Assembly: GCA_023078555.1 (NCBI GenBank)
Contig: CM041199.1
Location: forward strand, 7,941,315 to 8,005,314
Source: Ulva prolifera
Lineage: Eukaryota; Chlorophyta; Ulvophyceae; Ulvales; Ulvaceae
Direction: 5' to 3'
Length of the DNA stretch: 64,000 nucleotides
Shown here piece after piece: positions 113 to 41,666 of the stretch (positions are counted from its first letter, which is position 1; each line of letters starts with the position of its first letter). Position numbers and translations under genes: made by a program. The notes beneath the pieces were generated by a model, which had not been told where the DNA came from, did no database searches, and worked only from the letters and a program-made list of their open reading frames with translations.

Positions 113-2471
113 GCTGACACGAGGGACAGGAACACTAGTGCTGGTGCTTTGACCCGTCGGGTCACGAAATCGCATGTGTACCTGTATGGGCGTGACAACA
201 TATGCAAGGTGCTGCACTTGAATAGGGTATCAAAAGCGGATGGCTTGAACGCACAAGGGTGTGCTCCGTTTCTGCCCTGACAGTGTGCAAGCGTTGTGTC
301 CGGTGGTGGGGTTGTTGCATCTGGCATCGAACATGATAGTCTGTTGAGGCGATTCGTTACGCAGGATGGAAGGATCTTTGGTGGACCGCCTCGGGGGCTG
401 GACCCTGAAGACCGCCCGGCTGCTGGCTTACACTATCAGTGCCAATCCAAAGGCCACTGTCCAATGCCATGGCTTTGCAGACCTGGATGCTTTCCATCCG
501 ACCCACGCCTACCTCATCCCCGAACTGATTGATGCTGTTTTTGGCGTGGTGTTGGTGAGGGTCATTGGCATCACATCGCATACTGAGGGTATGACTGTGA
601 GTGAGGCAATCAGTGCTTGCAAGGAACATCACTCTGCCAGCAAGGAGAAGGACTTACCTGCTTACGTCTTCTTCGAAGTTCTGCTCTTCCTCGCTCGGGC
701 ACTTCTTCAAGTGTGCACCTTCCACATGTGTCCTTCCACATGTGTACCACTTGCAGCGTGAACCACCGATGTTGTATGCGACGGTGTGGTGGTAGTAGCA
801 GCACATATGAATATACCAAATCTGTTCACGTGCCATAGCAGGTGCACAATCTGCTGCCGTTCAATCTTGCCCGTCCATGGTGCGCCTAACGACCGACCCC
901 AGCCTTGTGTCTGTAGTCTCTGCCGGTCATTCGTGGCACATGGCCGTCGCTGTGGATCTTCCACGAACACTCTTTGTTCCGCACCAATTCTGGCCATCCA
1001 CAACAACAACTCTACAACGACTTCGCATCCTTGCAAGTCAAGGTGTACAACGCAGCTACAAACTACTATGATGGGCAGAAAGTATGTGGCGTCAAACCAA
1101 GGGCCACCGAGCCTTGGTCACCAGCTCCTCATCTTGCGCAGGAGGCTGCACGGATCAACGCCAAGTGGGCATTTGCAGACAAATTTGGCGATGGCATTTC
1201 TGACCCGTGCCGCCAGAGAGCCTTGAAAGAGGTGAGTGTTGTTGTCACCGTTTACGGTTGTGTACAAAGGCCAGTTTGATCTAACTGCAGTTGGCTTATG
1301 CAGTCGGCCGAGGACACTGAGACAGCAGACGATGCCATAATACCGATTCAACAGTTGACATTACAACGGCTCATCAAGCAAGCACGGGCCTTATGTCAGA
1401 ACACGCAGGTGTGTCCCTATGTGTGATTAGTGGCCCAGCATGAAACTGTGTTGGCAGCAAACGCGATTTGGTGTAGGCCATTGCGCCAACACAAGGCCTA
1501 GAGGAGCCTCGTTTCATGCACATGGCCGCCCAAGTGGCTGAGTGGGTCACGGCCTTGGAGGAGTATGATGGGCCCAGGCATGTTGATGTCCCGTGCACCA
1601 TGGTACGACCTGCCACACTGCTAACCATGCATGCCGCAAACAACCAAATGTGTGGGAGAACTAGTATTGTGTGCAAGTTTGTATGCATCACAATCCAAAT
1701 GTTTTTGTCAACACCAATAGGGTGCACCAAATTACCAACATAGTGGCTGCAATTCGACTTCCGCGGAGCTTGTGTTGCCAATCTGGGGGCAACCCATCAG
1801 CTGGTAGTGTACACCTTTTCAAAAGTTATGTGCATAGGTTGGCGATCCACGCATGGCTACGAATGCCACTAATCGATTGAGACAGCAGCTGACTGGCCAT
1901 CGCTCGGAAGTAATGCGCGAGGTGGTTGACCTCAAAACGACACAGGAATGTAATCAGCAGAAAACCGAGGCTCGGCTGGACGAGATTGCACAGAAAGTGA
2001 ACGCACTCGGGGCATCGGCAGGCGCGCCTGTGCCTAATTTGCTTATTCAAAGTGGAGCGAGCCGCGGGAAAAGAGGATCTGCCGCCGAGACACCTGGCCC
2101 ACTTCCCGAGGCTCCACAGCGATCGAGTTGCACCGAATTGTGCCCCAAGCAAGCCTCGGCAGTGACATCTTTCGGCAATAGTTTCGCTGGGTTTTCGGTG
2201 CGATCTGTTTGACTCATGGTCATGTGCCTGCACTCGCCTCTATGACGCTTTGCATACATGACACTTGTTCTGGAGCATGACTGATGTTTCATTGTTGCAT
2301 TGCAGCCACAAGATGCAGTGCGGTTGGTGCTTCATGGCCTCGTGTTGGCCAGAGGTGGCCTACAGCTTCCTCCGCTTGGCCTCCAAACGGCCCAAGCTAA
2401 GGCATCCATTGACTCCGTGATGTACCAGCAGGCCGTCAATCACAGGTCCTACGGCACACTTGCACACCCAG
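113..2471 (+). CDS. Unrecognised multi-exon gene (partial, opens before or at window edge)
   Basis: A run of short open exons bounded by plausible splice sites on the plus strand. The best are 366 to about 711 (enters after CGCAG), about 1000-1230 (leaves at GTGAGTG), 1304-1408, 1477-1602, 1853-2197 and 2306-2471. The 1853 exon encodes a charged, heptad-like helical stretch (MATNATNRLRQQLTGHR and onward, about 45 residues) followed by a Gly/Ser/Pro-rich tail. The 366 exon contains LVDRLGGWTLKTARLLAY and a hydrophobic helix. No family was recognised. It lies upstream of, and co-oriented with, the transposase at 3242, so it could be an extra gene of that element, part of an older neighbouring element, or a host gene. 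Exon joins are inferred and the start is unknown. Confidence 0.33.
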
Positions 2472-3241
2472 GTGCGCTACATGTCGAGGTGGGCTAAACT
2501 GGGGTGAGCCAACTCGTAACTTCTCGAAAATTGCGGGTTTCGGTGATCTGAAGGCGTAGTTGTGCTGTAGAGTGGTGCTAGAGCTCACTGGTGTGGTTGG
2601 CATCCCTGTGACAGCCATGGACCGATTTTGCAGGCCAACAGGCTCCTATCCTGCTCACCCGGTGGGTGCTCCAAGGCCTTGGGTGCGCTGAATGTGGGTG
2701 AGTCAGTCTATTACAGACACTGGGACGGGGCCTGCAATGGTCCGAATCCTGTTGGAATGATGCGACACGAATGAAGGTGTCGTTGGAGTCATTATACATA
2801 AGTTGGAATGTGGTATCATGCTTCTTGGTGTGTTGGGTCACCACGCGTAGCTCACCCAGCAGGTGCGCCTTGGTTATGAGTGAGCAGTCTCGAGGTGTGC
2901 CTTGCGCGTACTTGGCCGATGGATGGCTCGTCGCCGTGAAGTCTCGAGTTTGTTGACAGAGTATACTTCGTTCTCTGACCAATCTGTATTTGGAAGACTC
3001 GCCATGATGGACGCACAGAATAAACACGAGCTGACGCACCCTTGAAATGTTGGCACTACCGCCACAACGCTGTCATAACTCCATCCGTTTACGCACGCTT
3101 GGTTTGGAGTGGCCGCCATCTTCTCAAAACAATGCAGTCGCGCTGGACGTGTCTTCCACAGTCCGTGTTGGCAAGATGATCGCCATTGTGCTTGCCGTTT
3201 CGCTAGTGTGGAGCTTGATCAATACATGTCCAACACTTGTT
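2472..3241. other. Spacer between first gene and family 1 transposase
   Basis: About 770 bases with only short overlapping open frames on both strands. The left terminus of the family 1 element and the transposase promoter should lie here, but no CACTA-type inverted repeat could be paired with one on the right side. CACTACCGCC occurs at 3054, but no reverse-complement partner was found after 11.6 kb. Confidence 0.4.
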
Positions 3242-6200
3242 ATGCAAAATAAGCGATTGGCACAAGATGATTTCGTAGAACTTGCAGACGGTAGGTGGTG
3301 GTGCGCGCCCTGTGGAATCCCTATCTCTGACCGCCACAATCTCGTCGCGCACCTGCTGGTGTGGTCTCACATCAAGCACGCCGACAAAGTGGCTCGCGGT
3401 AAACGTCGCTGCATTACACCACCATTGGTGACTGTATCTGACGATGATGATACAGAGGAGTGTGCTACCAAAAACCCGAAGTCCCCTTCTGCCGAGGGAA
3501 TTGTTGGGTCGTCAGAACGCAGGTCTACGCCTCCACAGAACGACTGCCTGCCGGAGAACGACCATGGCCAGAGTAGTGAAATGGAGAATTGTGGGCGACT
3601 TTTTGCCCCGCCAGAAAGTCTCTTGCCATCTCTTCCTTCCACTACCGGGGTGTCTGCTGCAGTAGCTGCTTCATTAACGCTAGAGCGTTACGTACAGCCT
3701 GATCAGTCGCCTGAACTCCTGTTCCATGACAGTTGTGAGGCAGGATGTGAAACACCGGTGTGGCCTTGGACATGGTGTTTGTTCTGATGCTATGCTGAGT
3801 ACATTGTGTTGCAGCTTGTCAAAGGGTCACGGCGTGCCATGCAGCCTCATGTTGCTCTCCTATATGCAGGATCTTGCTACCTGGCTACGCCTGGCAGTGG
3901 AGGAGTTGCGCTTGCGAGGCGGACAAGACCATGACGACCATACACTGCTGCAAGCTGCTCGGCAGCATGGTATGCATGCTGAAGGCAATGATGCAGAGGA
4001 AGTGGTCATTGCCGAGCTGCGGGACCGAATGATGCTTCAGAAATCCCAACAAGAGGCCACAGATACACCTTCGCCGCGCCAATTTTCAATTAGATGGTAC
4101 CAGGATAATAGAAATAAGACGATTGCTCCAGGTAGTACGGTCACGGTCTTGCAAGCGTGCTACTGTATGACGTGGCTGAAGATGAGGGGCAATATGACGT
4201 CATACTGCCTTGACATGATCTGCCGGATGCTGGCTTCCGGTGGGATGCTCCCCGTGACTAACAATCTAATGCCTAGGTATGATTTGTCCATTCCACCTTT
4301 GCCCCTGTCTTGGTTCGAAACAACCTATGATGTCCCTTGCCTATTTAACACCACACTTTGACCCCTCGTTTGGGCCCACGGCTTTGTTATGGCTTCAGTT
4401 GCAAATCTGTGTAGGTCAGAACACATTATACGGGGAGTGCTGTGTCTGCAAGGTACGGATGAGTACACATACGACATGTGTGACAATGGACAGTGTCCTC
4501 ATGTCTATGGCAAGCAACTACCGATGTCGGAGAGGCGCCTCAGAGCTGGCGAGAGATGTCCGACTTGCGGTAACCTAAGGTACCGGACACGGAACAAACA
4601 GGTGCACCCTGTTCGCAGGTGAGTCCAGAATCGGTGCTTGTGTCCTCCGCATGACATCCCTTGCAGTAGCTGGTGTAAATGCATGTCTATTGCATGTTGT
4701 GCTTTTAGCAGTTGATGGATGAGATCCTGGTGTATTGCGTGCAGTGCATATGTATTGAACCTGAAAGATGTGATAAACCACTTGTTTGGGGAGCCCATGT
4801 TCGCCAGATTTGCCGGGACACGTACCCATGCTATGCTTGATTCGCCTTTCTACCAGCGGATTGACAAGGCACATGGGAGGGCATTGTCGGCGCTCGACAG
4901 TCAAGAGCAGGCTGCATGTGCACAAGATGCCCATATCGCCACGGAAGATGCTGATACCCCAGCCTGCGCCGGTCCCTCTACTCAGCCCGCCATCAACGAG
5001 GAGACAGCCTCGGATGGAGATATCGTGGACCCCGACCCAACGGATGAGGTGGCGACAGGTGACGGCGAAACACTTACTCTCTTGTTTGCCTTGTTCATCG
5101 ACGGAGTGCAACTGCATGGCCATGGCCGCGCCACCACGACTGTAGTGGGGCTGAAGTGTATCGATCTACCAGGTTTTCTTTGCAATACCGATCTCGCTTG
5201 TTTCCCCTTGGCATACATTGGCGGAGTCAAGGAGCCAACATGTCTCACCCAGATCACACATATTATACTGAAGCAGTTCAAGGATCACGAGGTGTCCACC
5301 GACACTGATGCTGAAGGTGATGCTCTCGCCTATTTTAATCTGCATGTGGTGCACTGTATGTTGGGCGGCATGTTTCACCGGTGTGCATTGTCCGCAAGTG
5401 CTGCCTTCACAGGCAACATCCGAGTCAAGGGGACCCCGATCAGGGTCTGGGATAGCCATCGCAACAGCTGGCGATACGTGTACCCTGTCCTCGTGTTTGC
5501 CTTTGCTGACACACCCGCAAGACGCGGATGGGCTCTTACCACTGGCCACACCGGGAAGAGTGGCTGTGATAAGTGTGGCATTCGGGGATTCCGTTTACTA
5601 CCCAGTGGTATCGAATTGAATTGGACAGCTTTCATGGGGTATTCATCCCCATGTCCGGTCCTCCTCTTTGATGCTGAATCGAAGGTATGCTCGCCAGGGT
5701 TGTCATGGGTTGTTGTTATGCTGTTGTGGTTCAGTTACCTGTGCGTACCTATTCGGGGGCCCTGAGTAGACGATGTTGCTGACATCGCCATACACTATAG
5801 AAATGGACGGCCGAGATGATCCAATTTGGTGTGGACGGTGAGCCTGATCAAGCAGCTCTGGAGCGCGTGGTCATCACAGACGAGAAGCATCGCATCCGCA
5901 GCCAGGCTGCAGAGGAAGACAGTCAGACCGCGCTTGCTGCCCATCCCCTTCCTGTGGATGCTCGTGGTGGTGGGGCCTTGGGAGCGGATCCAAACTCCAG
6001 GGAACAGATCCTATTGAGCAGAGGTGTGTGTAGCCTCCACTGCACCTTACACGAATTCAACCAAGTCAATTGGTGTATCCGCTGCTCTGGTTAGTGGCCA
6101 TAATATTGGTTAGGATTATCTGCGTAAAGTTTGCCCTGCGTCAATGAGCAACGTTGACACCATCACTATACTGCTCCGCTTGCTGCACAGATTGTGCTGC

Positions 6201-8505
6201 CACGTGGCGTCGTCGCCACGATGTTGCCAACACTGCACACAAGCACCTCGGATCGAGAGGAATCAATCCCTTCCAAGGATCCGGCCTTCTTGGTTACGAG
6301 TGCGCAGCAACACCGCATGCAAACGTATTCGTATGCGTGTGTCCATGCCTGTCCTATTAGTATTCACCTAATAGTACCTCCGCCAAAAATCCGTGTGTGC
6401 AGCTTCCCCACAACATTCGTGGAACCTATGTCTCACACCATCCTATATGCCCTTCTGCGTAATTTCCTGGTGTTCATTTGCAACACCGGAAACCCCATAA
6501 AGGTTGATGGAGAGTATTTCTGCCTCTCTGCCGCTCTGCAGCTTCGGATGGACAGTTACATGAAGATGATACAGTATCCCAGCGCGTACAATCGGAGAAT
6601 CCAAGGCATACTTGGGTAAGGTCACCACAATGTACTGCATCATGCTCCGGTCGAATGTATTGTGCTTGCATGAACCCAGTTGGGTTCAGTAGGTCAGTGT
6701 GACATCTGATGCGACGTCTGCGTGATGAACTGCAGAGTCAAGATATCCCAGTGGTTATTTGAGGAATGCAACACCTTCCTGGAGATCACGGGAGCCATAA
6801 CTTTTTGGCACTTCCGCGAAGAGATACACGCTGGCATTTTGAAGATGTGGGCGCATTTGCGGACTTACGCTCTCTATTTTTTGCATTACCGGCCAGGTCA
6901 ACACACCAGTGAGCAAGTTCTTGCAGCTCAGCGTGAAATATTCCAGTTTGCCGAGTACTCAGAGAAGCATTTGGGAGGGAAGCTGCTCACTTGCTTGACT
7001 CACCGTTGTTTTGCTCACATCCCCCCCCATATACTTGCGACTCTTCCAGGGGCTTTCTTGCGAGAGGACTTCGGCGAGCGGCTTGTGCGGTGGACAAAGC
7101 GATACATCCAGGGCCATGCCACTGTGAGAGCACCTCAAGCGTCTGCGGCAGTGTGCCTGACCCAAATGGGACTGCGCATCTTGAAGAACCAGAATTTCAA
7201 TGTGGACGAGCCGTTGAACAGGGTCAGGCCACCACAGGCCCGTCGCCCCCAGGACTCAGGTGACGTCTACGGCTCTGCTTTGCATCAGATGATCAACGCC
7301 CACACCGGAGAAGACCGTGACGAGGTGAGTTCTCCCAATCCATGCATGCTCACATTTACGAGTATTTGTAGGCATCCATGTACGTGTATTACTGTCTGCA
7401 TGTGAATTGGGCTTTTGGTTGTGCGTGTGAGCTTCGGTACTTTGGGCAGTTGACTGTTTCACAGTGTTGTGCACACGGCAGGTGTACACGGTATCGTAGG
7501 AGTGGAAGTTGGGATTTCTTAGCCTAATGGACCAACACGGGTGTGTCGGTGGCAGTGATATACCTGGGCATTGCAATTGCGCATTCTATGGCAGCAGGTA
7601 CACCATAGACGATGCAGTCGCCGGACAAGAGGTATATCACTGCCACCGACACACCCGTGTTGGTCCATTAGGCTAAGAAATCCCAACTTCCACTCCTACG
7701 ATACCGTGTACACCTGCCGTGTGCACAACACTGTGATTGTGTAACTGTGATTGTGTATACATTTGTCACAGACCTCGATGAACACCCACTCATTATTGTC
7801 GGTATGATGTAGGTCACCAGGTTTGTGGAGGTTCTCGACGAGATGATGCCACAGCGGGCAAGTCAGTGTCACCAGGTGCAAGGACCTTTGGCCATTGCTG
7901 GGCGATTAACCAGGAAACACATTAAGGGCACCTTCAACAGAGGTACAGGTAAGATTGAGCATAAAGACAATGAGATGGCCACGGTGTGGTGTTCAGACTC
8001 TGCTACGATCCAATCTGGGGCCTGGATTGTGCGAACGCACGATGGCTGCCACGCCCATGGAAGGGAGCACACTGACCAGTACGTGTATGTCCCATTCCGG
8101 TATGCGAGAGGGCACAACCACTGCGTCATGCATATCAAACAAATTCTGTTGATACGTCGCAAGAAGATGGACTGGGTAAATGATGAAGCTAGAGTTGCGG
8201 TTGGCACTCTGTGGGAGCATCTTCCCGTTCGGAGGGGTGCAGGCCTGGAGACCGAGTACAACGATGATCCGTCAACGGGTGCCTGCTCTGTGCCACGGGC
8301 AATGCACCTGAGTCCGAAGCAGAAGGGGAAGGGGCGGTCCTACTGCATTTTTTTGAGGCAGATCCACTGCCCATGCGTGTTCATACCCGACAAGATTTTC
8401 GGTGATACATTCATGACCTTGAGCAAGATGGGGTATCACGGCAGAAGGGATCTGCAGGTCACCGGGGTGATGGAAGTGTATGATGTGCTTGAGGAGACTT
8501 CTTGA
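3242..8505 (+). CDS. CACTA (En/Spm) TNP2-type transposase, family 1
   Basis: Transposase expected to cut and paste a CACTA element in the nucleus. Nine exons are inferred: 3242-3757, 3870-4276, 4415-4618, 4745-5684, 5801-6023, 6191 to about 6338, 6403-6615, 6736-7324 and 7813-8505. Most intron phases match exactly; the exon 6 donor is uncertain. Product is about 1,300 residues. Exon 1 has a C2H2-like finger (Cys21, Cys24, His37, His43/46; WWCAPCG). Exon 3 has a Cys-rich ribbon (CPHVYG, CPTCGN). Exon 4 is the TNP2 core (FIDGVQLHGHG, FADTPARRGWAL, GHTGKSGCDKCGIRG). Exon 7 (FVEPMSHTILYALL) matches the TNP2 DxMH region. Exon 8 is the conserved helical C-terminal part, and exon 9 contains WIVRTHDG and YVYVPFRYA. 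The start was chosen just before the finger by analogy with family 2. The intron between exons 8 and 9 holds a perfect foldback. It appears intact by eye. Confidence 0.8.
7460..7735. repeat. Perfect 106-bp foldback in transposase intron
   Basis: Left arm 7460-7565 and right arm 7630-7735 are exact reverse complements over all 106 positions, separated by a 64-base loop. The structure lies in the intron between transposase exons 8 (ends 7324) and 9 (starts 7813), so nascent transcripts would contain a long perfect RNA hairpin. Confidence 0.95.
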
Positions 8506-8977
8506 GTGTGCTTAAATGTTTAGGCCCGTGTACCAATGGTCTTCCATCACGTCATTGCCACTATGTCTGCCTGATCTCTGAGCTGCTTGATGTGTCACCT
8601 GTGTCTCCTGCACTGAGTGCTTCAGATGTGCATTGCTATTATGTGTGGCTGCGAGTGTTGTCAAAGGTCCAAACTGAAGCCCATGGCCGGACTGTGTACA
8701 GTTGCTCGGTTCGTCGTGTACAATGCGGCATTCAATTTGAATAAGGCAGCTGTTGTCACTGATGCTAGGGAGAAATCCGGACAACTTAATTTGCCCATAC
8801 TGCTTGTATCCTGCTGGCCACGACGTCGCTGCGTGGCCACAAGTGTGTTCGCCGCTGCGTAGCAATTTCAAAATCCTGTCCACTGCACGGGGACTGTACG
8901 AAAGTTCAAAATTCTTTACAGACCCGGAACGACCACAGTGGCGGAGACCGTTCTATATGTAGTGCGCACAGTGTATA
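8506..8977. other. Intergenic spacer between transposase and ORF2 (family 1)
   Basis: About 470 bases with no supported exon. It should hold the transposase 3' end and the ORF2 promoter. In the inverted copy at 20-21 kb the equivalent gap is about 390 bases, so the two-gene spacing is conserved within the family. Confidence 0.5.
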
Positions 8978-11621
8978 ATGGCAGAGCAACCTGAGCCCAT
9001 CCTAGTGCGTTCACTTGAATGCCTGACGGTTATGGTCGGAGACCAGCAGATCAGTCTCACTTTAGCAAAGAGCGCTGGCGACACTGTCGATGAATATTTG
9101 ACCGACCTTTTCGCCGACTTCAAGCGCAAAGTGGAGGAGATCACCGACAGGGAGTTTCACGCGGCCTTGGGGTATACATCTCTAAAGAATGACACTCTGA
9201 AGAAGATCTTCTGGGCGCTATATGGTGTACCATACGAAAAGGAGGCCATATGGAAAGGTGAGTGGATCGACAGGACTGGTGCTTTCGCACTCGACGACCC
9301 GACGTCTACCAGCACTGCGAAGCAGGCTGCGAAAGCCGGCACTTCACGTAGCAGCAGAACCACACGAACTCCGACTGAGGTATGATAGCTGACAACTAAG
9401 TGCCCCGTGGTTAGCCGCGCCCAACTGGTTGTTACTATCTGACCACAACGTCATAACTCTCCGACCACGACTTTACAACATTGCTGATATGTCGCCTACA
9501 GGCAGAATTTGATCTAAAGTGCGCCATGGAGATGTTCGCGCCGTACAATACACCGGAAATGGTCGTGCACATGCTCATGTACCTGCCCGTCGAAGTTTGC
9601 TTGGACAGACCTTCCCTAATGCTTGGGTCCGTGATGTCCACCCGAGTGAGGCGGTTATTGCAATCCATTGATGCATGGAGACGGGATCCATTCTTGGAGG
9701 TGCGATACTATAGTATTGTGCATGAGCAGCAACGGAAAAGCCCTTGGATGACAGTGTATAGATTAGAATTTGCCACACAAGGATCAATCCCGTCTCTGCC
9801 ATACCTGCACCATTGCATCTCCAATGTGTATCTGTAGGACATCACTGGTATTGACCAGTTACGACACGGCACCGCAATCAAAAATGCAAGAGCTGAAGTA
9901 ATCCAATTGACAAACACATACGTCAAGGCCCGATGCAAGAAGGAGCTCAAGCCTGCTGTGGCCACCGAAGTCCAGGCAGCATTGAACAAGGTAGGTAAGT
10001 CCATGGACTCCGACAACGGCAGGAAAATACGCCCAACGCTGTACATGATGTTCCTGTCATGGGCACAGCACAAAGACACCGCCAATCAGTTGGCTGTGCT
10101 GCTTGCCAAGGAGCCATGGTCATGCACGGCTACAGAGATTGATGCCGTCGTGTCCAAGCTAGGTGCCATTTTCAAAACCCTCGGGAAGCAAGCAGCCAAA
10201 CCAGCTAAGAAGTTTCGCGAGAAAGTGAAAATAGAATTGTTCAAGCTGACTGAGTCCGAGGAGTTGAAAAAGGTTTTTTCACGCACTCAGTCGTCGTGTA
10301 TTATTTCATCATGCTGTGATGTACCCTTGTTCATCGCGGCATATGTTGTAGGGCCTGCGAGCTTTGTTGATCGAGTGGACAACAGAATTGAAGACTTGCG
10401 AGACATTAGGCGCAATCCAAATGAAGGAGGCCGCCATCATCGAGTCCGAGGACATGGACATCATTCATGAAGAGGCGTGGCGCGTGGAGTGGGGTCCATC
10501 TGGCCATCCCACTCCGGACAGTCCATATGGCCCCGCTGCAGAAGGCCGTTACGTGCTCGATCCAGAGAAACAGAAAGACCGTGCACTCAGGACCGAACCC
10601 AAGACCATGACCATGTCTGCCATGCTTGCTCCGTGTGGTGGGAACACATTTGCAGGTCTGCAGCTCTTCCGCAATACTCATCCATTCGCAGTGTGGAGAG
10701 TCATGGTACCAGACTTCCTCGAGCAGGGCAATGAAGATGCAGTGAAAATCAGTGCACCAAAGAGCGGATACCATTGCGTCATTGGAGTCCACATGCTTTC
10801 GAGCGTGCGGAAGTATGTGGTGCGTCTCATCAACACCTCCATGCTGTTGTAGCTGTAATGTTTACTAGTAGCTGGCCTGTGCGCATTGCCTCGTGGCTCA
10901 TGTTGCTAGATGATCTTTACGCCTTTGCCGCGACAGAGTACGGAGGGCCGGTTGGATGCAGGAGGCAACATTTGCTGCTGCATCAATGAGGCCTCCCACA
11001 GAGCTGACGGAGTACTGCACAGTTTTGAAAGAGACGGTCCCGTTGCCGCCAGGGGCTACAGTTACAGCAGAAATTGACAGTGCGGATTGGGAGGACAATG
11101 ACAACGACGGAACAGGATCGGGAGAGGAAGTTGCGGTGCCCGATGAGCCAACACAAACTGCAGGGCCCAGCACAAGAGCTGCCCGCCGACAACGCCGAGC
11201 GATTGCAATTGAACCACCTGTTGTAGCAGAAGGCAGCTCAGAAGAGGAACCACAAGTTGAAGAAGACGCAACCGAAGATGATGAATTTCACTTTCACTCG
11301 GCAAAGGCATCTGTTGTGCAAGCCCAGGTCGAGACTGGGCCGGAGCAGACACCACTCAATGACTTGAGCAACGTCCAGGTGCTGATGAGCTATACTATCT
11401 TTTGATTGAGGCATCAATTTGCTGTGCGACCTTCATCAGGCTAGCTGCATGGATCCACACCAATCTTTCACAGTCGGCTGCTGCAGGCCCAGCGAGATGC
11501 TGAAGCAATTGCAACACAACACACCGAAGCAATGGCTGTTCAAGGGAAAAGACGGCGTCCTCAAAAAGCTCAACGTGCAAGTCGAGCCAAGAGTACTCGT
11601 CTTGTCAAGCGAACACCGTAA
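8978..11621 (+). CDS. CACTA partner protein ORF2, family 1 (function unknown)
   Basis: Second gene of the element, co-oriented with the transposase. Inferred exons: 8978-9379, 9502-9699, 9838-10272, 10352-10655 (end uncertain), 10962-11378 and 11487-11621. Phases are zero at nearly every junction. Product is about 630 residues. Exon 1 starts MAEQPEPILVRSLECL and forms a compact mixed alpha/beta-looking region. Exon 3 is helical (RKIRPTLYMMFLSWAQ), and exon 4 contains LLIEWTTELKT. Exon 5 is acidic and disordered-looking. The last exon is a basic tail (GKRRRPQKAQRASRAK) that looks like a nuclear-localisation or DNA-binding segment. The same exon order and similar sequences occur in family 2 (53491-57286, minus). 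A TnpA-like accessory DNA-binding role is conceivable by analogy with En/Spm, but no homology to TnpA was recognised. Confidence 0.68.
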
Positions 11622-13157
11622 GAGCATGGTGCAAAGTGCGCCCGGCAGGCAAGTACTTCTGCCCCAGTCATATTCAAATATATTCCTACTGTACAGGTTC
11701 CAACTGCCTTGTGGTCTGAACCGCGACGACACCTCAATGCTTATGTGCAGGAGATTTGAACGGAGACTATATACGATCCACAAGACGGAATGGTATCTGA
11801 GTTGTCAATCGTAAATTATTCATTGAACATGGCAAGCGATTTGGCAGTGCAATAGTTCGGTAGCTAGTGGCTGCCGATCGATATGATGCTCTTCAGACAT
11901 ACCACAGCGGTACTAGGATTGTACCAGAAGCATATGACAATGATATTAATGAATATCCACTGTCCGTGCGGTGGTTTGCGTGCATTGTGCATCTTGCGCA
12001 CCTGACTTGCCAACCCACTCGCGCCTCGCGCACTCGATGGCGCACGCCAGCGGGTGAGCCTTGGTTTCACAGGCGCGCAGACGAGACCGGGTGCGCTGAC
12101 CCAAAGTGCGCCAAATCCAAGACGTGCCATAACGCACGCATACGACGCCTGATACCCTGGCTGACGTACGCAAGAAAGCTTTCGGAAATACTGCGTCCAG
12201 AAGCAGAGCGCCTTCGACTGACCACTGGTGTTCAGTGACACGCGTCCAGCCAAGGAGAGCCACATTCGGAATTAGTTACCTCGTGAACAGCCAAATGAAC
12301 CTAGGGATCTTATAAAAATCGTGAGTGTTCAAAGCTTGCCATGCAGTAATGCGCGGGGCATGCGCGAGGAAGAAAACCTCCAGTACCTGCGAACTGCTAC
12401 CTATGCCAAGCCACGTACAAACCAAGTACCCGAGGGCCATCCCACTAACACGGTCGTCCCAGAACACCATTTGGTAGCTCATACATTCATATTCGCGACG
12501 TATGGGGAGATAACGGTGGCGTGTGTCTGGCAGGGCCGGGACAACACGGAACGCAAGAGCAGCTGCACAAGCTGATCTCGGGTCGATCACACACTCCGAC
12601 CAAGTACATCGCGATGCTCGATGCCATAAAATGATTTCGATGGTTCAGCATGGCACGAACCGTGATCGTGGCGACAAATATCACGACACATGATGCGGAC
12701 GCACTACACGGGATGTAGTCGCAGCAGCGCAATGTGTGCGCATGCGACCGTAAAGTTGTAGCCTATGTTTACAACGATCATAGTAAAGGATATTAGCGAG
12801 TCCGTCTAGCGCATGAACTGTTCCTTCGCCCCAGATATCAAGGCCAGGCTACCGGACTTGGGCCAAACGGAGAGGACGTCGGCGAGCCAACATGCGGCCA
12901 GAACATGTTGGCGACGGAACATACGGTCACTTATTATGTATGAACGATATTGGTCGTCATCAGATGCTGCGAATCGTGGAATGCGTGCCATGAACAGGTT
13001 CGCTGGGTCCCATCCAAGCCACTCACACGAAGACACAGGAGGCCGAGATCTCCACCAATCGACATCGGAACGGTTCCATGCAACAAAGTATATATCTATC
13101 GGCTACCATGAGCCTTCCTGAGTCCAAACGCCGCTTTTTGTCCAATTTCGATAATCC
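11622..13157. other. Stretch without supported gene, probably containing the family 1 right end
   Basis: Open frames on both strands overlap one another and have no consistent exon structure. The right terminus of the family 1 element is expected here; TAGTG occurs at 11865 and 13219, but neither has a convincing inverted partner before 3.2 kb. Nothing else was recognised. Confidence 0.4.
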
Positions 13158-16100
13158 GTGTCTACTTGCGCACCCAGTACGCTCACCCATGGTGAGCATG
13201 CTACTCGTCTGACCTGTGATAGTGTGCGTCAAGAACTGGAGCACAATAGGGTGGACAGCACCAAAGTAAAGTGCATCATTCATGAGCTCCAAGGTGATGC
13301 TGTCATGGTCCAAGCATCGGTGAGTACTTCACAATCCCGACGTAAATGTCCGGCCTACAATAGCTGACTCCCATGGGTGCACTGTGTACTGTAGGTGCCC
13401 TCACCGGTGCTCAAGAGCGTGGCCCCGCAGGTCACGAAGTCGTTTGCGGCGGCGCGCAGGGCCTTATGGGTCTGGTTTCACGAGGTGACCATCTTTAGGG
13501 TCCTCAGTCGGCACAAATGTGGTCTCCATGGACTACAACTTGCATGTGACAGTGATCGAGAGAAGATGTCATGCACAAGCATAGGACAAGAGCACGCCGC
13601 CTTCTGCCTCGCCAACCATTTCGATACCAGCTCCCGGGGCGACGGGAAGGGCCTCTCCGGGTGGGCGAGGTATGCCAAGTACACTGCTTCCAATGCTGGC
13701 ACAAACAAGAAGACTTTGCACATGAAAGGAAGTGCATGTCTCCCTCTTCGAGTGCGCGCGTCTGCAGCTGCATGCATGGTCCCTCCCCACAAGGCAGCAA
13801 GGCATCAAACCTTCAATCTAAGGCTTCTTGTGTATGTAGCACGGGGCCGGGTTGATCAAGATAGCAGCGCCGCAGTGGCGGTACAACACCAACGCGCGCC
13901 GAGCATCTGGGGAGACGGTAGATGACCTTGCTGCGCCGACGTCCACAGCGCCGCCGCCTTCAGCAGCGGCGGCGGCCGCCTGTCCGGCTACGGCCTCAGC
14001 TGCCACGCCGTGTTCAATTGCACCAGCCGCGCCTGCCCCACCCGCACCCGCGCCTCCTCCTCCACCGGCGGCGGCAGCCGCCTGTGCGGCGGCTGTGGCC
14101 TCAGCTGTCACGCCGTGTTCAACGGCTCCAGGCGCGCCTGCCACCCCCGCACCTGCGCCTCCTCCTCCACCGGCGGCGGCAGCCGCCTGTGCGGCGGCTG
14201 TGGCCTCAGCTGCCACGCCGTGTTCATCGGCTCCAGGCGCGCCTGCCACCCCCGCACCTGCGCCTCCGCCTTCCGCAGCAGCGGCAGCCACTTATCCAAC
14301 ATTGCCAATATCTCCGGCACCGGCGGTTGCAGCCTCAGTCTCAACTATCCTCCCCTGCGCAAGTGAGAGTGAACTGCTGCAATCAGATCCTTCCATCATG
14401 CTCCTGCGCTCGCCTTCCTCCTTGCATCAAATCCACACCGCGCAAGTTCTAGACTTGTGCATCACGGCTGTGCGCATGGTGTATGACAACATTGAGGTGC
14501 CCTCTGAGGGTGGCCCTGTGGTGTTCCGGCATGTCGGATTGGGGGGGTCAGCGGCAAGTCGCCCCCATGTTGTCACGTGGCTTCAGCGGGAGCTCCCGCA
14601 GGTTCACGCTGCCGTGACCGACAGCCGTGAGTATGTGTCAGCACTAGCACCATGCTTAAAATTCAGCGATGGTGGTGCCTTTCAAAACAAGCATGGCTCT
14701 CGTGAGTTCGTAAAAGTGGCCAGAGCACTATTCATAGATGTCATTGCTCTGCATCGCTGCCGCATGATGACGGCCCCCCCTCCAGATGGATTTGGCCTGC
14801 GCATGCATGTGGAGGGGAAACAAGAGCAAGAGGTTCCATTCGATTGGGACCTCCTCCTTGGCCTTCTGCCGTCTGCCTATCCTGAACATGTCATGTCTGT
14901 TCACGCCACTGCGTACATCTATGCTCGCATCACAACTGGGATCAGTCATCTTGACTGCTCATGCAATTGGTATCAATTCACTAGGTGCCAGCTGGTATCT
15001 CAAGGGCTACTGCTGGTCACAACAGCCTTGAAAAATCAGCGAAGCATAACAGCTTCTACCACAAGGAGGCATCGCCGACCAGACTCTCGTGGTGCAATAG
15101 AGCGGCAAGATTTGCCTCGGAAGCCTCCGGTGCGGAAGCGTGTTCACAATTTGTTGCCCCCTGAGGAACCCGCTTTGCAGCGGAAGTCTCGGCGTCTCGC
15201 AAGCAAGTGCGATCTGTGGCTAGTGCATGTCCACTGTGTCTTTGTAGTACACTTTGCTGAATCCCAACATGTGCGAACACTTGGTGTAGGACTGCTGTTG
15301 GAGGTGCTGCCGCTGCTGCACACGATCCGCACCGTGTTGTGGGACAGTCTTCGAAAACGAGCACTGCTGCCATTTCTGATGCAACTGCAGATGAGCAGCC
15401 CGTGGCTGCTGCCTTGCCATCTTGTTCAGATGGGCTACTATGGTCGAAGCTGCCTGCACTGCAAGGCCTGGCTGTGCCAACGGACGGAACCGCTGGGTAC
15501 GCTTGTCACCAGGCACTGCTCCACACAATGCCAGCACCAGAGTGATAGTGTATGCAGTAATGTTCACACGCATCACGGCTTCAGCATGCCCATTTTGGCA
15601 TGATTTGGTGCAGGTGCTTACACGAAAGTCTCACAATTGCTTTTGAGAGGCTTGTGGGTCAAGATGTCCCCATTGATGTTGATGGTGGCACTGTCAAGAT
15701 CAATGCGTTGAGCGAGCTCCGAATGCCAGGCTCACGCATCCGTATCAGTCCTGAGGACTTCGCTACATGTGCCTATGGACGGCAAGTCAATGACATCGTG
15801 ATCGAAATGTACGGAAAATTGCTCCAGGTACGGTATTTCTCAGACTTCCACCACCACCATGACCCAAATCCACAAGGTATGCCCGCTCACGTGTGATTCA
15901 GGAGAGGAATTTCATGGATTGTATGGCCGGGAGGGCTGGCGCCACATACATCACCACATCTCACCTGCTTCCTAAGCTGGCAGATGTGATGGATATGACA
16001 TCAGCTCGATTCGATTACCATGAAACCGAGCGATGGCGTACATCGAAGGCAATGGGTCAGCCGATGTTCAGAGTTTATGGTTCCCTACCCCAGCTAGATT

Positions 16101-20178: not shown

Positions 20179-20364
20179 TCAGCCGCAAGGTTGCACACGC
20201 CTGTATACATCATTCAAATATTCAGCGATACTTTCGCTATCGCTCTTTGACAGGGCTATCGAGATCTCTTGGTTGTCGACGAAAATTACCAAGCATTCGA
20301 GGTCACGCACGAGCACAGGCTCGTGCTCAATTGCTACGTCGTCAGTCATTGCGTGCGATCTCAA
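20179..20364 (-). pseudogene. ORF2 N-terminal fragment, inverted family 1 copy
   Basis: The minus-strand frame encodes EPVLVRDLECLVIFVDNQEI and then SESIAEYLNDVYRR. It aligns with the first 50 residues of the ORF2 at 8978 (EPILVRSLECL, VGDQQISLTLAKS, VDEYLTDLF). Homology stops at the AT run, so the copy is truncated inside ORF2 exon 1. Confidence 0.75.
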
Positions 20365-20749
20365 CGTGACATGAGTATGGAGATCGGCCCCGATTTGTCT
20401 AATGTATGGACGTACCTGTGGAAGCGTTGCTTGAACTCGCGAGGCGTATGAATGTTGTTTGCCCTGGTGGACACAGTCTGCACAGATTGTGGCAGACCGC
20501 CTTCAGGCAACCCGACACCGGGCTCACCGACATCAAACCAGGACGCATGCTTTTGTTATCAATATTATTACGCCTCTTCTAGATAGGAAAGAAATGAAGT
20601 TCGTGATCGCATCGTGGACGGTCAAGATGTGCTCCAGATGTGTCATGTAAAAGTGGCAAGCAAGCAGTGAAAAAAGGTAATAGCTTGAGGAGTAGGTTAC
20701 GCAAAGAGTGTAGACAATTATGTGGTACAAACGAACAATTATCCTGACA

Positions 20750-25437: not shown

Positions 25438-25453
25438 CACTTCAGGAAACTCG
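25438..25453 (+). repeat. Left terminal inverted repeat of element A
   Basis: CACTTCAGGAAACTCG. It differs from the element B end only at base 5 (T for A) and pairs with the right end at 46550-46565. Confidence 0.88.
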
Positions 25454-26746
25454 GCTGGTCTCAGAGGACGGAAGGCCAGATTCCAGATGCCACTTTGGCG
25501 ACTTTGGTGGGGGCAACTGGGGCACATTTGGCTAGGTTTGGGGCTGATGTTGGAAAGGCTTAGCATTTGGAAATAGCTGGTACAGAGTGCTTGAAAGGTT
25601 GTTTTCCATGCCGCCGTCGGCAATCGATTGTACAGTAATTGAGCTATTGATATGTTGGCAATTGCGTCGCAGTCGCAACGCGCTGGCGATCTCATGCAAA
25701 CTGCCCTATTTGCAAAATGCAGCGTAGAGCTGTTTCAGCACGTACATGTTGGCTTCAATTGAACACCACGTCCGTGGATGTTGATGCAGAGATGTTGCAG
25801 ATTATGATAGACTGCATCTTGGGGTGTTCGCGGAGCTCAAGCAAGACATTCTGTGACCACAGAGGCCGGCACAATGGATGGTGCGCGCATTGGTTATACA
25901 GCTCCAAAATACGCTGGATTACAAGCGCGCCTTCGCATCTGTGTTCGCTCGTAAATAGTACACCGTATGTGATCTTCTACAGTCCGTGGTTGGCCAGCCG
26001 CGGGCTGTTTGGCGATGTTACAGTCCTTGCACACATGCCACTCCGAAGTGTGCCGATATTGCCCCTGTTGCCACAACGGGCGGAATTTGCCGTACGTCCA
26101 CGAGCAGATTCATCTGAATTAGGACCAGTTCGAGAATTTAGATGGCAGATTCTGCCTGTTTTGTGAAAAGGGCAAATTCCGTATGCTGGCGGGAGGCCAT
26201 GCGTCCCAGGCTGAACGCACGGTAGATCAGTGGCTGTGCAGCAGTAATTGTTCGATGGTTGATCGTTTTGATGTTACACACATGGTTACAGAGGTACAGC
26301 TTCACTGCACTCTGCTCCCTCCCGCCCACGATTCCCGAGGGATTCCTCACAACCCACAAGGCAAGTACAGTGCGATGCAATGGCTAAGTGCCACAAGTAA
26401 GGGTATGGAAGAACTTTAGAGTCTACTGCTCGAACGAAGCTGCCACCGGTGAGTCTCTGTACGCTTGCTAGCCATCCTCACTTTTGTGGGGGAGCTCTGC
26501 GCCGGGATGTTCTTTGCAAGGAACCAGTACCTGTCAGACACAGTTTGCATGTGTGAGTATGCTAAACGTAGCATTTTACTTTGAATTGTCACCAAAGTGT
26601 CAGTCCAACTTCATGCTGTGCAGTGTTGCTGGTACTATAGGCCACACGTATAGGCTGCAAATATGGATCCACAATCGCACGTATTGCATCCAGTCGCAGA
26701 CTGCTGATGTGCATATGAACGAGTGCTTTGAGCTGACTGTACGGTA
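25454..26746. other. Subterminal region of element A (beyond ORF2)
   Basis: Corresponds to 52190-53490 of element B. Open frames exist on both strands but none is clearly coding. G/T-rich short motifs (CTTTGGTGGGGGCAACTGGG, GGCTAGGTTTGGGG) sit within 150 bases of the end, as expected of CACTA subterminal transposase-binding regions. Confidence 0.45.
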
Positions 26747-29700
26747 TCATACCTTTGGCGCAGGCCGCTGACGGCACTTGGACGGTTGAGTGGTTGCTGC
26801 TAGTCGCTTTTTTGCTCGAGCACTACTCTGAGCTCCTTGCATCTGGTTCTCTTTGCTGGCAACGGATTGCAAAACACCCTGCACATAAAAGGACACCAGT
26901 ACAATGCGCGATCAGATACAATATTCATTGTTGCCATACGTTTCCCTGCCGCAGCTCTGCTCTCCAGCACGTGCATACCTGTTGGCTCGAAAATGTTTGC
27001 AATCTGTCACAGGACTAGCTTTGACATTTACTCGGCACCAGACTTGTCAGAAATACAGGTTGATGTTACACACCTGGCCCCCGTGTTGGTCCTCGGTCAC
27101 CTGCTTCTGTGTTGTGTACATATGCTGTCCGGTCGCAAGCTTTCTCTGAGCTGCATTCAATGGTTTTGTCCCGATGGCCGTGGATGCAGGTAGCGGATCT
27201 GGCAGCACTGTTTGGGTCAGTGCACATGTTGCCACACGTACGCTGTCCTCACCCACATGTGCACGGCTTGCAATGTCCTCCTGCGTACATTCTTACGAAT
27301 ATGCTATCCATTTCTCAAATGCATACGCTAGCAGCTTAGCAGAGCTAGCACCACACCCGAGTCAATGATGGCGTCGTCATCACTCTTGCATCAATTGTCG
27401 TCCTGGGTGTGGTCTGAGTAGGTGGTCCTGTATAATGGGCTGCTGCTGGTTGCATGCAAGCATCCACAATGTCCGGGACCATGTCAGATCGACCTGATTT
27501 GCGGCTGGTGTCTGCCGGGCGGTGCATGGTTTTGCCTGTCTGAGGCAGCATGTTCACGTGAGCGGCCATCGGCCATCCTATGGGCTGGCCTTGGCGTGGT
27601 GGCCACATGCGCTGCTGCGGAAATGCCGATACGGGGGCCCCCACTGCTGGAGAACCTCCGGTCCAGCTGAAGGCATGAGAACAGGCTCAGAGATAGATTG
27701 CCATCGGCTTCCAGCACTGCCTATGCTGGACCTGTGACAGTCTAGTTTGCAGAAGATGTCTTCGCGGATGTGCTCTGGCCTGGGCTAATCCATTGAGGCA
27801 TGGCTTCCTTGAAATGCTTGGCCCATCGAGGGTGAATCTCCACCTCGTGAGGTCGCCGCACCTTTTCGTCAGGTGCAATCAGCTCCTTGTGATCATCGCT
27901 GTTCACACAGGCAAGGAACGCCAATTGTCTCTCGGACACTTCGGCGCCGATCAGGTCTGTAGGGTCTTCTACCAGCTGCCATGCATACTTTGCCCATACA
28001 GTCTGTGCACAGGTCAAGTCGGAGTCGAATGCAATGGACAAAGCTGGAGGGGAGTTCCTGGACCAATTGGCTATTCCTTGATTCGTCAAAGCCGGTGCCT
28101 CATACCCTCATCCGCCTTTTCGTGATCATAGTGAGGGCGATGGCAGTCTCCTTGGGGTGCCTTCAGATCTTCCAGTGCTGTCTCGGTCAGCCCTTGCTCA
28201 AATGCTGTGCTGCTCATTTCGCCTTTAATCGTCTTGAGCCAGGCTTTCGTGAGATTCATCAACGCCTGTGAGTATTAGGACATGGGTGCAGGGACTATGC
28301 AGTCGCCCAGAACAAACGCATTGTAGCTGATGAGGCTGTGCCACCCATGAAGACCATTCATGATGATAATCAGATGTATAGATCGCACCGTCGGCTTACT
28401 TTCACAGAGCTCTGTGATGAATTCCGTCAAGACGTCTGGCAGCCTTTCCGTGCTTGCTTTTTTTCAGAGACTGCCGCATCGCTTTGTATTTCACCATGAT
28501 GGGTCCATCCTGGAGTCCATCAGACTGTGTGCTCTCCGTTGATGCCTCGGTGTACTCAATGGCAACATGTGGCTCCTCTTCAGTGGGGGGCTCTGAGTAA
28601 TCTTCCAGATCCGAGGCCGGGATTATGTCTTCAGTCTCGGGGTCCCCTTCTCGCTCGCTCCGCAGCAAGTATAACATAAACAACATCATCAAGGCCGGCC
28701 TCCTGTGTCTGTGGATAATGTCTGCCATCCTGTAGTCATGCAAACATTAAAAACTCCCGTATGCCTGCGTTTATGTGTCTACCACAGGGACAACATGTAC
28801 GGTGGAGAGCATCTTGGCTCTGTGTAACCCAACATCAGATGTCGCGATATAAACATACGCATTCAACTTATCTTTTTCTTGTGATATCTTCTCTGCCACT
28901 TTCAGGACAGCCTTCGTGTGACGCTTGCGGGTCTCGGCTGCAAAGCATGCTAGGGCCAGCAATGCATTCATCGTGTCCAAGTCCGACTGGGTGTCAAGAT
29001 TCTGCAACAGTACACCTACCCGATTATGACAACCTTGATGTGGTCCGGGGTCTGGATCAAGTGCCACCTGCTGCATCAGGCAACCAGGCATTTCAATAGA
29101 CATGAACAGAGCAGCTCACCTGTTTAAACGCAGCATCATCGAGATGCCGCTTCAAGAGATCAACACACGCATAATTTCCAGGCAGACATGACTTTTGCTT
29201 CGAACTCCAAAATTCGGATGCGCTGCCGAGTCCTTTAAAAATGACTTCAGCCCCTGCCGTCGGGATCACGGCTAAGCCCTGCAATCCCGCTTCCACCCTT
29301 GCAGCAACCTGCAACAGTCATTAATACATGGTATCTCCATGTCGTGGCTGCATTGCTGGATGGCGACACATCAACAGGGACAAAGACACCGTCTCACCGA
29401 CCTGATCAACAACGTAGCAGGACCCACGCCAGTGGCGCAATGAGCATCCGCCACTGGTAACGGCTTGGCTTTCTGCTTCCCTCGTTTGTTCTTCTTAGTC
29501 GTCAGATAGAGATCGTATGTCATTGTTAGGCCAGCGACTGGCTTCACCAGAGCAGCGTGGGGCGTCTCCAAATCTTCCAAGGGCAGCGAATACACTTTCT
29601 CGAATATCTTACGGAATGGGAGGAATTCGCTTTGATCTGTATGGGTAAGGCTGTACCTCCTTCCCAACGCCGCTGCCACCAAAATCTCTTCCAAAGTGCT

Positions 29701-29862
29701 GTACACCTCTTCAGCATAGTTTCGGCGCTTTGCTGGCGACTCGAGTCGTCGAGTGGTGTGCGTATCGGCTGTCACGAGCTGGACATTGTCTACGTAAATA
29801 CAAATCGAGCGAATTGCATGAGTCCGTGGACCCGTCGCAACTGGCCGTCCAATAGATGCCAT
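26747..29862 (-). pseudogene. ORF2 partner gene, element A (internally deleted)
   Basis: Near-identical to the intact-looking gene at 53491-57286. It starts at ATG 29862 (MASIGRPVATGPRTHAIRSI), runs through the same helical exons (29093-29314, 28771-29000, 28402-28743, 27746-28260) and ends in the basic-tail exon at 26747. It lacks 669 bases present in B: the junction is at 27745/27746, equivalent to losing B 54491-55159. This removes an intron and more than half of the 300-residue exon. A single-base length difference in a T run near 28457 also disturbs the frame relative to B. Confidence 0.75.
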
Positions 29863-30429
29863 CGTCAACGATATCGTGTGCAGTTGAGTAGCCGCGCAAA
29901 GCAAAGGGTGCGCTGCATAATACTGTCGCTGGCTGGAGAAGTTTACCGCCGCGAGCGAGTGGACGTTGGATCGAGCATGGACTGCTGTTCGGATTTGCGT
30001 GTTGGATTCCCTCCCTACCTCGCAAATCTGCTCTGATGTCCGCTGGAGGGGCCACAGCGATCTTTGACGATGGCAATACGCGATCACTGGTGCCCTTGCA
30101 TCAGCAATAGCCGTAGATCAATTGTCTACAGATGCTTGGCGTCTAGCTGACCTCGAGCGGGGCGACCCCTGCTTCCTCGCACTTGGAATAGCGTTAGAGT
30201 GTCACCACTGGTGCAACGGCAACGACGAACACGCCAGAAATTTCTCAGTGTCAGCGCAACAACGTGCATCACTTCACGCCCTGCGATTGACTGATCCTTC
30301 AGCTGCTGAGCTCACGAGCGGACCCGGGCAAGCACCACCACTCTGTGTTTCATTAGAAATCGCAAGCACGGCGGGAATATATCATTGCCATACTTCATTT
30401 ATTGAATCAGTCGTTGTATTTCTGCCGAC

Positions 30430-30456
30430 GAATTCCCGCCTTTCAGGCGGGAATTC
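30430..30456. repeat. 11-bp-arm hairpin between transposase and ORF2, element A
   Basis: GAATTCCCGCC, loop TTTCA, GGCGGGAATTC: a perfect 11-bp stem. The identical structure is in element B at 57854-57880. It lies in the intergenic gap after the transposase and before ORF2. Confidence 0.9.
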
Positions 30457-31440
30457 ACCATAGCTGGAAAGGTATGCCACCGGTAGTGCTGGCACATCCA
30501 ACATGCCCAGGTCGCTCATGAACGTCAGATTACAGGCAGTTTTCATGAAATTCCGGAGAGTGTTGAAGTGTTTCATCTGATAGCTTGCCAGGTCTGCATG
30601 TAGTGCTGTGTTTCACAAGTGTGTGTGGCAAAAAGCAGCCACGATGCACAACTGTAGGAGTGGCCCCCGAGCAGCTCACTTGCTGCACGGACCAAAGCTC
30701 GATCACAAATCGATCTTACATATTGATAACACGTACAGCAGGGGCGTACAACATGCGCTGGTGTATTGCACTGTACAGCGGCAGTGGCGTGTCGATGCCT
30801 TATGTTGACACAATTTAGTTCGTTTCAACCCCTGGTACATCATCCAAAGCTACACAACTTCAATGTTGGGATAAAATACTGATCATTCTTTGTACTCACC
30901 AAGGTGCAATCTATCTTGTCTAGCCACACACCGTATTGGTACCCAACTTGACCGTTGCCTGCTGCTGCATGTCGCTTTCTCAATAGTGAGGGCTTCCTCA
31001 CCCTTCCCCCACTGCCACCGTCGGTGTAATTCAACTCCTATCCATGCTCTTTCCGCCCTACTGCGTCCAAGGCATGCATAGTGCCTAGAGCAAACCTATA
31101 CACCTGCAATCCCCCTTCCTCAGTGGCCCGATGCCACGAGAATAGGTCGGTCACTTTCAACACAGTGTTGTACCCTTGCGTGGCCTCGGCATCACCGTCC
31201 ACGCCGGAGTCACTACCCTCATCGGAAGTCAAATATGGAACATATGCAAAATTATCGCGTTTGGCCAGTCTGGCATCAGTCGTTCGAACCAGGAACTGAC
31301 CCCCTTTGCACGAGGCGACCTTGCTGCGATATAGTCTCACCTTAGGTTTCCCATCAGCAAGCTGCGCTGTCAACATTGCAGGATCGAGGGGGCCGCCTGC
31401 TCCACTGGAGATTGCAGCATCATCACCCTCTGCATTAGTA

Positions 31441-31488
31441 TCGATAGACTCAATTGAGTCTATCGAGCATTTAAATATATTTAAATGC
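31441..31488. repeat. Double palindrome (snap-back insertion) in element A transposase exon
   Basis: TCGATAGACTCAA followed by its exact reverse complement (31441-31466), then GCATTTAAATA followed by its exact reverse complement (31467-31488). Element B has only TCGATAGACTCAAATGC here, so 31 bases were inserted, built from inverted copies of both flanks. Confidence 0.92.
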
Positions 31489-31822
31489 TTCTTGGATCCG
31501 TTTGACCTGCATGCACGGCACTTGATGAGTATGTACTGTTAGCCAATGTATTTGTAACAGGTTCAAATTCGACAAAAGCCGATCATGTCGAGAATGCATG
31601 TTCACTCAGGCATGATTGCTTCATGTCATCATGCGTGTTAGAACTACAAACCGGTGTTGAAGCCATGGCATTCTGGTTTCAGTGGACAGTTCGCACCACT
31701 GCATGCTTACTGGTCACGTCTTCGACGGCCCCCACAAGCCAATCGTCACCTGTTGTGTCATCCCGGTTCCGCCTGCTCGCTAACCGAAGGCGATCGCTTG
31801 GACTGATTGCCTTCAAGAGCCG

Positions 31823-31825
31823 CGT
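31823..31825. other. Target-site duplication, left copy (CGT)
   Basis: CGT immediately before the nested element, repeated at 41667-41669. Element B has a single CGT at 59222-59224 in the same context (GAGCCGCGTGGCCCGAGG). Confidence 0.93.
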
Positions 31826-31845
31826 CACTAGCACGATTGAACACT
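31826..31845 (+). repeat. Left terminal inverted repeat of nested element
   Basis: CACTAGCACGATTGAACACT; pairs with 41647-41666 with one mismatch at base 12. Confidence 0.95.
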
Positions 31846-33676: not shown

Positions 33677-33734
33677 GATGTGACCACAAGTGCATTAGGA
33701 TGGTATACCATCCTGATGCACTTGTGGACACATC
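33677..33734. repeat. 58-bp near-perfect palindrome
   Basis: Centred on AGGATGGTATACCATCCT, with arms GATGTG..CCACAAGTGCAT and its complement; only two of 29 pairs mismatch. The core GATGGTATACCATC recurs at about 41061 in the same element. Confidence 0.92.
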
Positions 33735-34401
33735 ATTGTCAGCGCGCGCTACGTGGGAACCCCCCCGGAATCATGGGGTGGCCGTAACATTGCCTGATCA
33801 CGCGTCGTGACGGCCTATCGACGCCCGAATGCGTCATTACTGACCAAAACGCGGAGGTGTATGATGACAGGTGTCCGCGTGACGGCCCGGCGTGTGAGGG
33901 GCACGCGTGCCTTTAATGGTGGGGCGGACACGGTGCACGCCATGTATCGAGCCCCAACGCGCCCACAGGCTGCGGCAAACACGTTTGTTTTTGTTCAAAA
34001 TGTATTCGTGCATCGCTCGCGTTGTCCTGCCAAGTCACGCGGCCCGGATGGACGATCATCGCAACATTGCGTCATCCGAATGCAGTAGCAATGCAGCAAG
34101 TGCAAGTCCGTCGCCCCGGTTGCGCATCGGCCAACCTGAGGCCTGCATACTGCAATTTAGTGTATGCAGAGGTCTCCTGGGGTCGATACGTTTGCGATCG
34201 CAGGCGTCACGACATGTGCCATGCCCGATTGCTGCTAATCGGTGGTCTGTTCAGCTTCATAAGCTCACCTACCGCCCACATTTTGCGAAACTGTCTTCAT
34301 ACACCCCTGAAGAACGTGATTATTGGGATATTTGATAGAAAAAACGAGAGAATTTAGCACCAGCGTGACGGTGATCTGGCCAGCCCAGAAATCGCGCTTT
34401 T

Positions 34402-34402
<1 letters not shown>

Positions 34403-34435
<33 letters not shown>
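34403..34435 (+). repeat. 33-base homopolymer G tract
   Basis: An uninterrupted run of 33 G following ATCGCGCTTTTC. It could form G-quadruplex DNA, or its length could be affected by sequencing or assembly error. Confidence 0.9.
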
Positions 34436-34437
<2 letters not shown>

Positions 34438-41620: not shown

Positions 41621-41646
41621 GGTGACTGATTGAGGTCCCTATAAGA

Positions 41647-41666
41647 AGTGTTCAGTCGTGCTAGTG
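41647..41666 (-). repeat. Right terminal inverted repeat of nested element
   Basis: Reads CACTAGCACGACTGAACACT inward on the minus strand, followed outside by the CGT duplication at 41667-41669. Confidence 0.95.

Follow-up and report, generated by a model that had tools for sequence, protein, structure and literature searches.

The stretch of Ulva prolifera DNA described here, 64,000 nucleotides of contig CM041199.1 and referred to below as the window, contains a CACTA-type transposable element (family 1), two copies of a second family (family 2) and a degraded third element. Family 1 carries, downstream of its transposase and on the same strand, a second gene, ORF2, which is the subject of this report; both genes lie within the element at 2441-13218. 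The features of family 1 are as follows.

2441..13218, plus strand: the whole CACTA-type element of family 1 (10,778 bp), with termini CACAGGTC...GACCTGTG, delimited by empty-site comparison
2439..2440: left copy of the target-site duplication, AT, repeated on the right at 13219-13220, from the 2-base overlap of the flank matches and the sequence
2441..2940, plus strand: 5' subterminal region, containing GGTGNGC nine times, in both orientations
4744..8505, plus strand: main exons of the transposase, with DGVQL, C-x2-C and H-x4-H motifs; further N-terminal exons lie upstream
8978..9379, plus strand: ORF2 exon 1, encoding the N-terminal domain (modelled as beta-grasp-like) and a short basic tail
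9502..9699, plus strand: ORF2 exon 2
9838..10272, plus strand: ORF2 exon 3, modelled as entirely helical, net charge +11
10352..10819, plus strand: ORF2 exon 4, LRALLIEW and WRV motifs
10962..11378, plus strand: ORF2 exon 5, acidic, few order-promoting residues, net charge -22
11487..11621, plus strand: ORF2 exon 6, encoding a basic tail (net charge +9), with the stop codon at 11619-11621
11905..13218, plus strand: 3' subterminal region, containing GGTGNGC six times, half of these within the final 60 bases

A sequence-only reading of this DNA had proposed a partner gene here and a co-oriented counterpart behind the transposase of family 2, and both are borne out by our analysis. In family 1 the gene fills exactly 8978-11621 in a model drawn from genomic sequence, with six exons, five introns of 79-142 nt, all GT..AG, and a predicted product of 684 aa. 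The predicted fold of exon 1 resembles a beta-grasp or PB1-like domain, a fold that serves protein pairing; the fold match is weak, and Pfam families and solved structures gave no sequence match to ORF2.

ORF2 is widespread in the host genome assembly (88.9 Mb, 44 contigs). Exon-wise searches, whose counts are lower bounds as only the best candidates were scored, returned at least 117 matches to the family 1 protein, at least 126 to a distant member, at least 45 to the family 2 protein and at least 62 to a relative of the latter. The same exon blocks were recovered by single-exon tblastn in the other families read, with breaks that match at ~30% identity; among the 13 profile loci outside the window, exon 1 is missing from one, exon 2 from another and exon 5 from three. 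A phase-0 donor stands at the matching place after exon 1 in 11 of the 14 family-1-type loci examined. Linkage to the transposase was assessed, among the matches listed, in 40 family-1-type transposase exons from 39 elements (one represented twice), mostly the H-x4-H exon and in four cases the DGVQL exon; the window's own element and two near-identical copies are included. Each of the 40 is followed, on its own strand, by an ORF2, which lies within 4.3 kb in 37 cases and at 7.6, 8.2 and 10.9 kb in the other three; the chance of finding one within 12 kb, given 75 ORF2 loci randomly placed, is ~0.02.

Substitution patterns lead in the same direction. Four between-family pairs of ORF2 have a pS of 0.76-0.81, at which silent sites are saturated, and a pN of 0.32-0.42, at which amino-acid sites are not; the pattern is alike in each exon, with exon 5 included for the three pairs that have it. 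Comparison of the coding sequences thus makes purifying selection clear for exons 1-5 in family 1's group. For close copies, dN/dS was 0.28-0.58 in four pairs, and it was 0.44 for the window's two family 2 copies. The complete linkage, together with a pN below saturated pS, therefore indicates selection for ORF2 without indicating which step ORF2 serves, and we conclude that in family 1's group it is the element's own gene, maintained by selection. Retention in such distant families had earlier been taken to imply a role in transposition; the selection stands, the step does not follow from it, and the case for family 2's group is less clear, as set out below. The features that bear on family 2 and on the third element are these.

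25438..46564, minus strand: family 2 copy A, ~21 kb including other DNA from ~31825 to 41666, termini CACTTCAGG..CCTGTAGTG
~29443-29862, minus strand: ORF2 exon 1 of family 2 copy A
52174..64000, minus strand: family 2 copy B, extending past the window, terminus CACTACAGG at 52174 (left end)
58330..61822, minus strand: query-matched stretch of the copy B transposase
56861..57286, minus strand: ORF2 exon 1 of copy B, homologous to that of family 1
56719-56531, 56478-56270, 56140-55815 and 55680-55156, minus strand: copy B ORF2 exons 2-5, ends set by eye, 4/5 junction uncertain
54080..54964, minus strand: copy B ORF2 low-complexity exon, start set by eye
20179..20502, minus strand: start of ORF2 exon 1 in the degraded third element, after its transposase fragments at 20750-22757

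The transposases of families 1 and 2 align over 752 columns with 24% identity (E 2e-27) and have the DGVQL, C-x2-C and H-x4-H motifs in common. In copy B, ORF2 follows the transposase in the same orientation, from 57286 to ~54081 on the minus strand. A profile-profile comparison of the two ORF2s detected similarity at the N terminus: exon-1 profiles (12 and 6 sequences) aligned with P 1.9e-4 and an hhalign probability of 47.5%, and spliced profiles (14 and 4 sequences) gave a co-linear alignment of 321 columns with a score of 40.0, P 4.6e-4 and an hhalign probability of 32.8%. The highest score in 200 column shuffles was 24.4, and a reversed profile scored 19.9. With exon 1 removed, the spliced-profile score fell to 19.7, matched by 6 of 150 shuffles, and exons 2-4 alone were not significant; their best alignment is in the matching register, running from RP..MMFL to LIEW/KAW. 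Since exon 1 holds the alignment signal, it is for the N-terminal domain only that these profiles show the two proteins to be homologous; homology of the rest is likely. The same exon order had been claimed for both genes, and of this the related first exon stands, with the register of exons 2-4 below significance. The exon number differs in family 2, where the alignment suggests that family 1 exon 3 is split in two, and a basic final exon could not be confirmed there. The inverted N-terminal fragment reported in the third element is upheld, as ~20204-20470 has 94% DNA identity to a locus of another family (L026) over the stretch before and into exon 1, covering roughly the first 40 codons.

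How far ORF2 is retained in family 2's group is less clear. We sought it within 12 kb of 25 listed family-2-type transposase exons. A same-strand downstream ORF2 was present for 4 of the 25, all in the window's two copies, and an upstream ORF2 on the opposite strand for 8; for one more exon the ORF2 assigned belongs to a neighbouring copy, and no ORF2 lay within 12 kb of the remaining 12. Identity to the query is 38-46% for six of these 12 and 47-76% for the other six, one of which has an opposite-strand ORF2 ~22 kb off. Unlike the window's family 2, relatives L043-L049 and L060 have ORF2 and transposase head to head, ~3-8 kb apart (C1:131k, C1:9410k, C2:10722k, C2:10735k, C3:6982k, C4:3150k, C6:5685k and C2:10315k), and co-orientation of the two genes is therefore no rule. 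Compared with family 2, these relatives are 73-75% identical in the catalytic transposase exon, 40-70% in the other transposase exons and 35-41% in ORF2 exon 1. A further set of nearly identical ORF2-bearing copies, L051-L059 (C1:3898583, C2:6124365, C2:6273559, C4:9238926, C9:1761727 and others), has a stop in exon 1 that is absent from the related L060, and no family-2-type transposase was near them among the matches listed; they are perhaps a derivative that kept ORF2 and lost the transposase.

The ends of family 1 are well defined. Window positions 1-2440 and 13219-16500 are contiguous, at 98-99% identity, at C3:3870004-3875827 and C2:10863591-10869519, and because the flanks are joined at these empty sites the insertion borders can be set at 2441-13218 and the duplication at 2 bp, AT. 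The flanking DNA is itself repeated on C3 and C2, which makes the insertion site of family 1 part of another repeat or of a recent duplication. Copies of family 1 on C1 and C2 are 99.6-99.9% identical to the window in five of six compared stretches and 98.6% in the sixth, which reaches into a hairpin region. There, inside the transposase gene and between its last two exon blocks, lies a 278-bp palindrome (7459-7736; two arms of ~139 bases, 88% identical over their alignment), which recurs in altered form in the copies on C1 and C2 and could give a long hairpin RNA.

With both orientations counted, family 1 has 12 GGTGNGC motifs in its outermost 1,000 bases vs 7 in the remaining 9,778. Unguided k-mer counts compared with dinucleotide shuffles gave P 0.002-0.006 when 500 bases were taken at the ends and P 0.004-0.054 when 300 were taken; for a control stretch P was 0.91-1.0. 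The first 28 bases of family 1 were found, with at most 2 mismatches, at 23 places in the genome, including three full copies and one degraded copy, and a reversed control at none. Fifteen listed matches to the 5' end, at 68-71% identity, were all read, and 14 of them are among the 23 places. In these relatives, which are nearly alike, motif columns are 95% conserved vs 58% elsewhere, a difference reached by 0 of 490 circular shifts. One derivative traced to its other end (the end of a second lies beyond the stretch read) is a 2.37-kb non-autonomous copy with a TG target duplication, in which blastn matched only the ends of family 1. It has counterparts of all nine 5' and all six 3' motifs; against family 1, motif columns are identical at 101 of 105 positions (96%) and other columns at 540 of 838 (64%). 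No clear motif was found at the ends of family 2, where the lowest P of six k-mer tests was 0.044. A subterminal repeat array, as in elements of the TnpA type, is thus seen in family 1 and not clearly in family 2.

Plant CACTA elements depend on a second protein: the subterminal repeats are bound there by TNPA (PMC2613891, PMC8195511), which is required together with TNPD (PMC2613891). Because family 1 has a conserved cis array and plant CACTA elements need a second protein, we find the following reading best supported, and hold it with confidence just above even: ORF2 would be the regular second gene of this group of CACTA-type elements in algae, its most likely role being that of a TnpA-like transposition helper. 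Binding to the GGTGNGC arrays at either end would fall to the basic parts of the protein, exons 3 and 6, and self-association to its N-terminal beta-grasp-like domain, and the self-associated protein would bring both ends together for the transposase. We infer three of these points: that the motif is read by ORF2 rather than by the transposase, that ORF2 forms multimers and that it is needed for transposition. The analogy, already raised in the sequence-only reading, is supported only indirectly, by an array of the kind that plant TnpA-type proteins bind. In line with that reading, which had recognised no similarity to TnpA, the TnpA, Transposase_24 and TNP1 families were absent from the hmmscan matches (E up to 1) of all 13 ORF2 proteins scanned (9 + 4), so that by sequence the protein belongs to neither TnpA nor Transposase_24.

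It is also conceivable, but in our view unlikely, that ORF2 is a regulator that counters host silencing or drives the element's promoter, with no part in cutting or joining. An acidic exon 5 beside basic parts resembles an activator, maize TNPA also reactivates methylated promoters (PMC1636069), and the subterminal motifs would fit promoter sites as well. However, the motifs are kept at both the 3' and the 5' end of a derivative that lacks matches to gene DNA, and a promoter role needs no such thing. We would give no better prospects to a structural subunit that binds the transposase and not DNA, leaving the motifs to be read by the transposase. The N-terminal model and the strict linkage in family 1's group agree with such a subunit, whereas the fold match is weak, and the head-to-head relatives keep the catalytic exon far better than ORF2 exon 1, a thin argument given the range of their other transposase exons. 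Capture of host fragments is known for CACTA elements (PMC8195511), but a captured passenger gene is very improbable here, as an intron-bearing ORF2 stands beside transposases in many families among the matches listed (a single-copy host version was not systematically sought) and is under purifying selection between families. The helper reading can be extended, tentatively and with rather less confidence than the helper role itself, to a two-protein green-algal CACTA machine, in which an ORF2 family unrelated to plant TnpA, combining a beta-grasp oligomeriser with a basic helical GGTGNGC reader, would predate the split of the 24%-identical transposases and would have moved between downstream co-oriented and head-to-head positions.

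Several known systems resemble the one described here in part. Like maize En/Spm TnpA and snapdragon Tam1 TNP1, ORF2 is a CACTA product additional to the transposase, and the elements concerned have arrays of subterminal repeats (PMC2613891). Unlike them, it has no Pfam match to such proteins and reads as a separate gene, on the opposite strand in some relatives; it is also one protein family common to many subfamilies. TNPA and TNP1, by contrast, are reported not to resemble each other. Plant CACTA elements whose ORF2 contains Transposase_24 (PF03004) are likewise two-gene elements with a second frame of unknown or helper function (PMC4158355, PMC8978399), but that domain matched 0 of our 13 proteins. 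The CMCT group has CA..TG termini, target duplications of 2 to 5 bp and C(2)C and H(3-4)H motifs (PMC12730594). The CAC..GTG termini of CACTA/EnSpm elements within that group are found in family 1 (CACAGGTC..GACCTGTG) and family 2 (CACTTCAGG..CCTGTAGTG in copy A, CACTACAGG at the left end of copy B), CDKC and HRCFAH of family 1 align with CPRC and HTCMAH of family 2, and the duplications, AT for family 1 and TG for one derivative copy, fall within the group's range and not at the 3 bp of plant CACTA elements; none was seen for family 2 copy A. DUF4218 was below the cut-off for the family 2 transposase (E=0.18), and a Pfam scan of the family 1 transposase gave no related family of the Transposase_21/DUF4218 type. 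A Transposase_21 search of the host genome gave no match, and control genomes likewise gave none. SmTRC1 of Schistosoma shares the 2-bp duplication and has extra products without TNPA similarity, but these arise by alternative splicing of element transcripts (PMC1636069). For Chlamydomonas, PMC8226300 names other transposon groups.

Other features of the window and genome are noted for completeness. The interruption in family 2 copy A (31825-41666) is ~9.8 kb of other DNA with a 92-bp tandem array at 36114-39529 and strong GC skew. A 94-bp tandem repeat at 51830-52173, which matches many genome sites, adjoins the start of copy B, and a 91-bp tandem array of ~21 copies occupies 17187-19080. Elsewhere in the host genome, an opsin locus matches the solved chain 'Archaeal-type opsin 2' (E 5e-53), Chlamydomonas channelrhodopsin 2, which would place the host among green algae related to Chlamydomonas.

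In titles and abstract openings, a search that did not extend to subscription papers and Repbase entries, we found no publication on a second gene of green-algal CACTA elements. The second proteins of plant CACTA elements are too divergent between elements for their common logic to be studied easily. Here, one recognisable second-protein family is present across dozens of elements in a single alga, and a candidate motif for its binding can be named. Family 1 exists in three near-identical copies, alongside derivatives that share its ends and gave no matches to its gene DNA. Together these make the two-protein division of labour directly testable.
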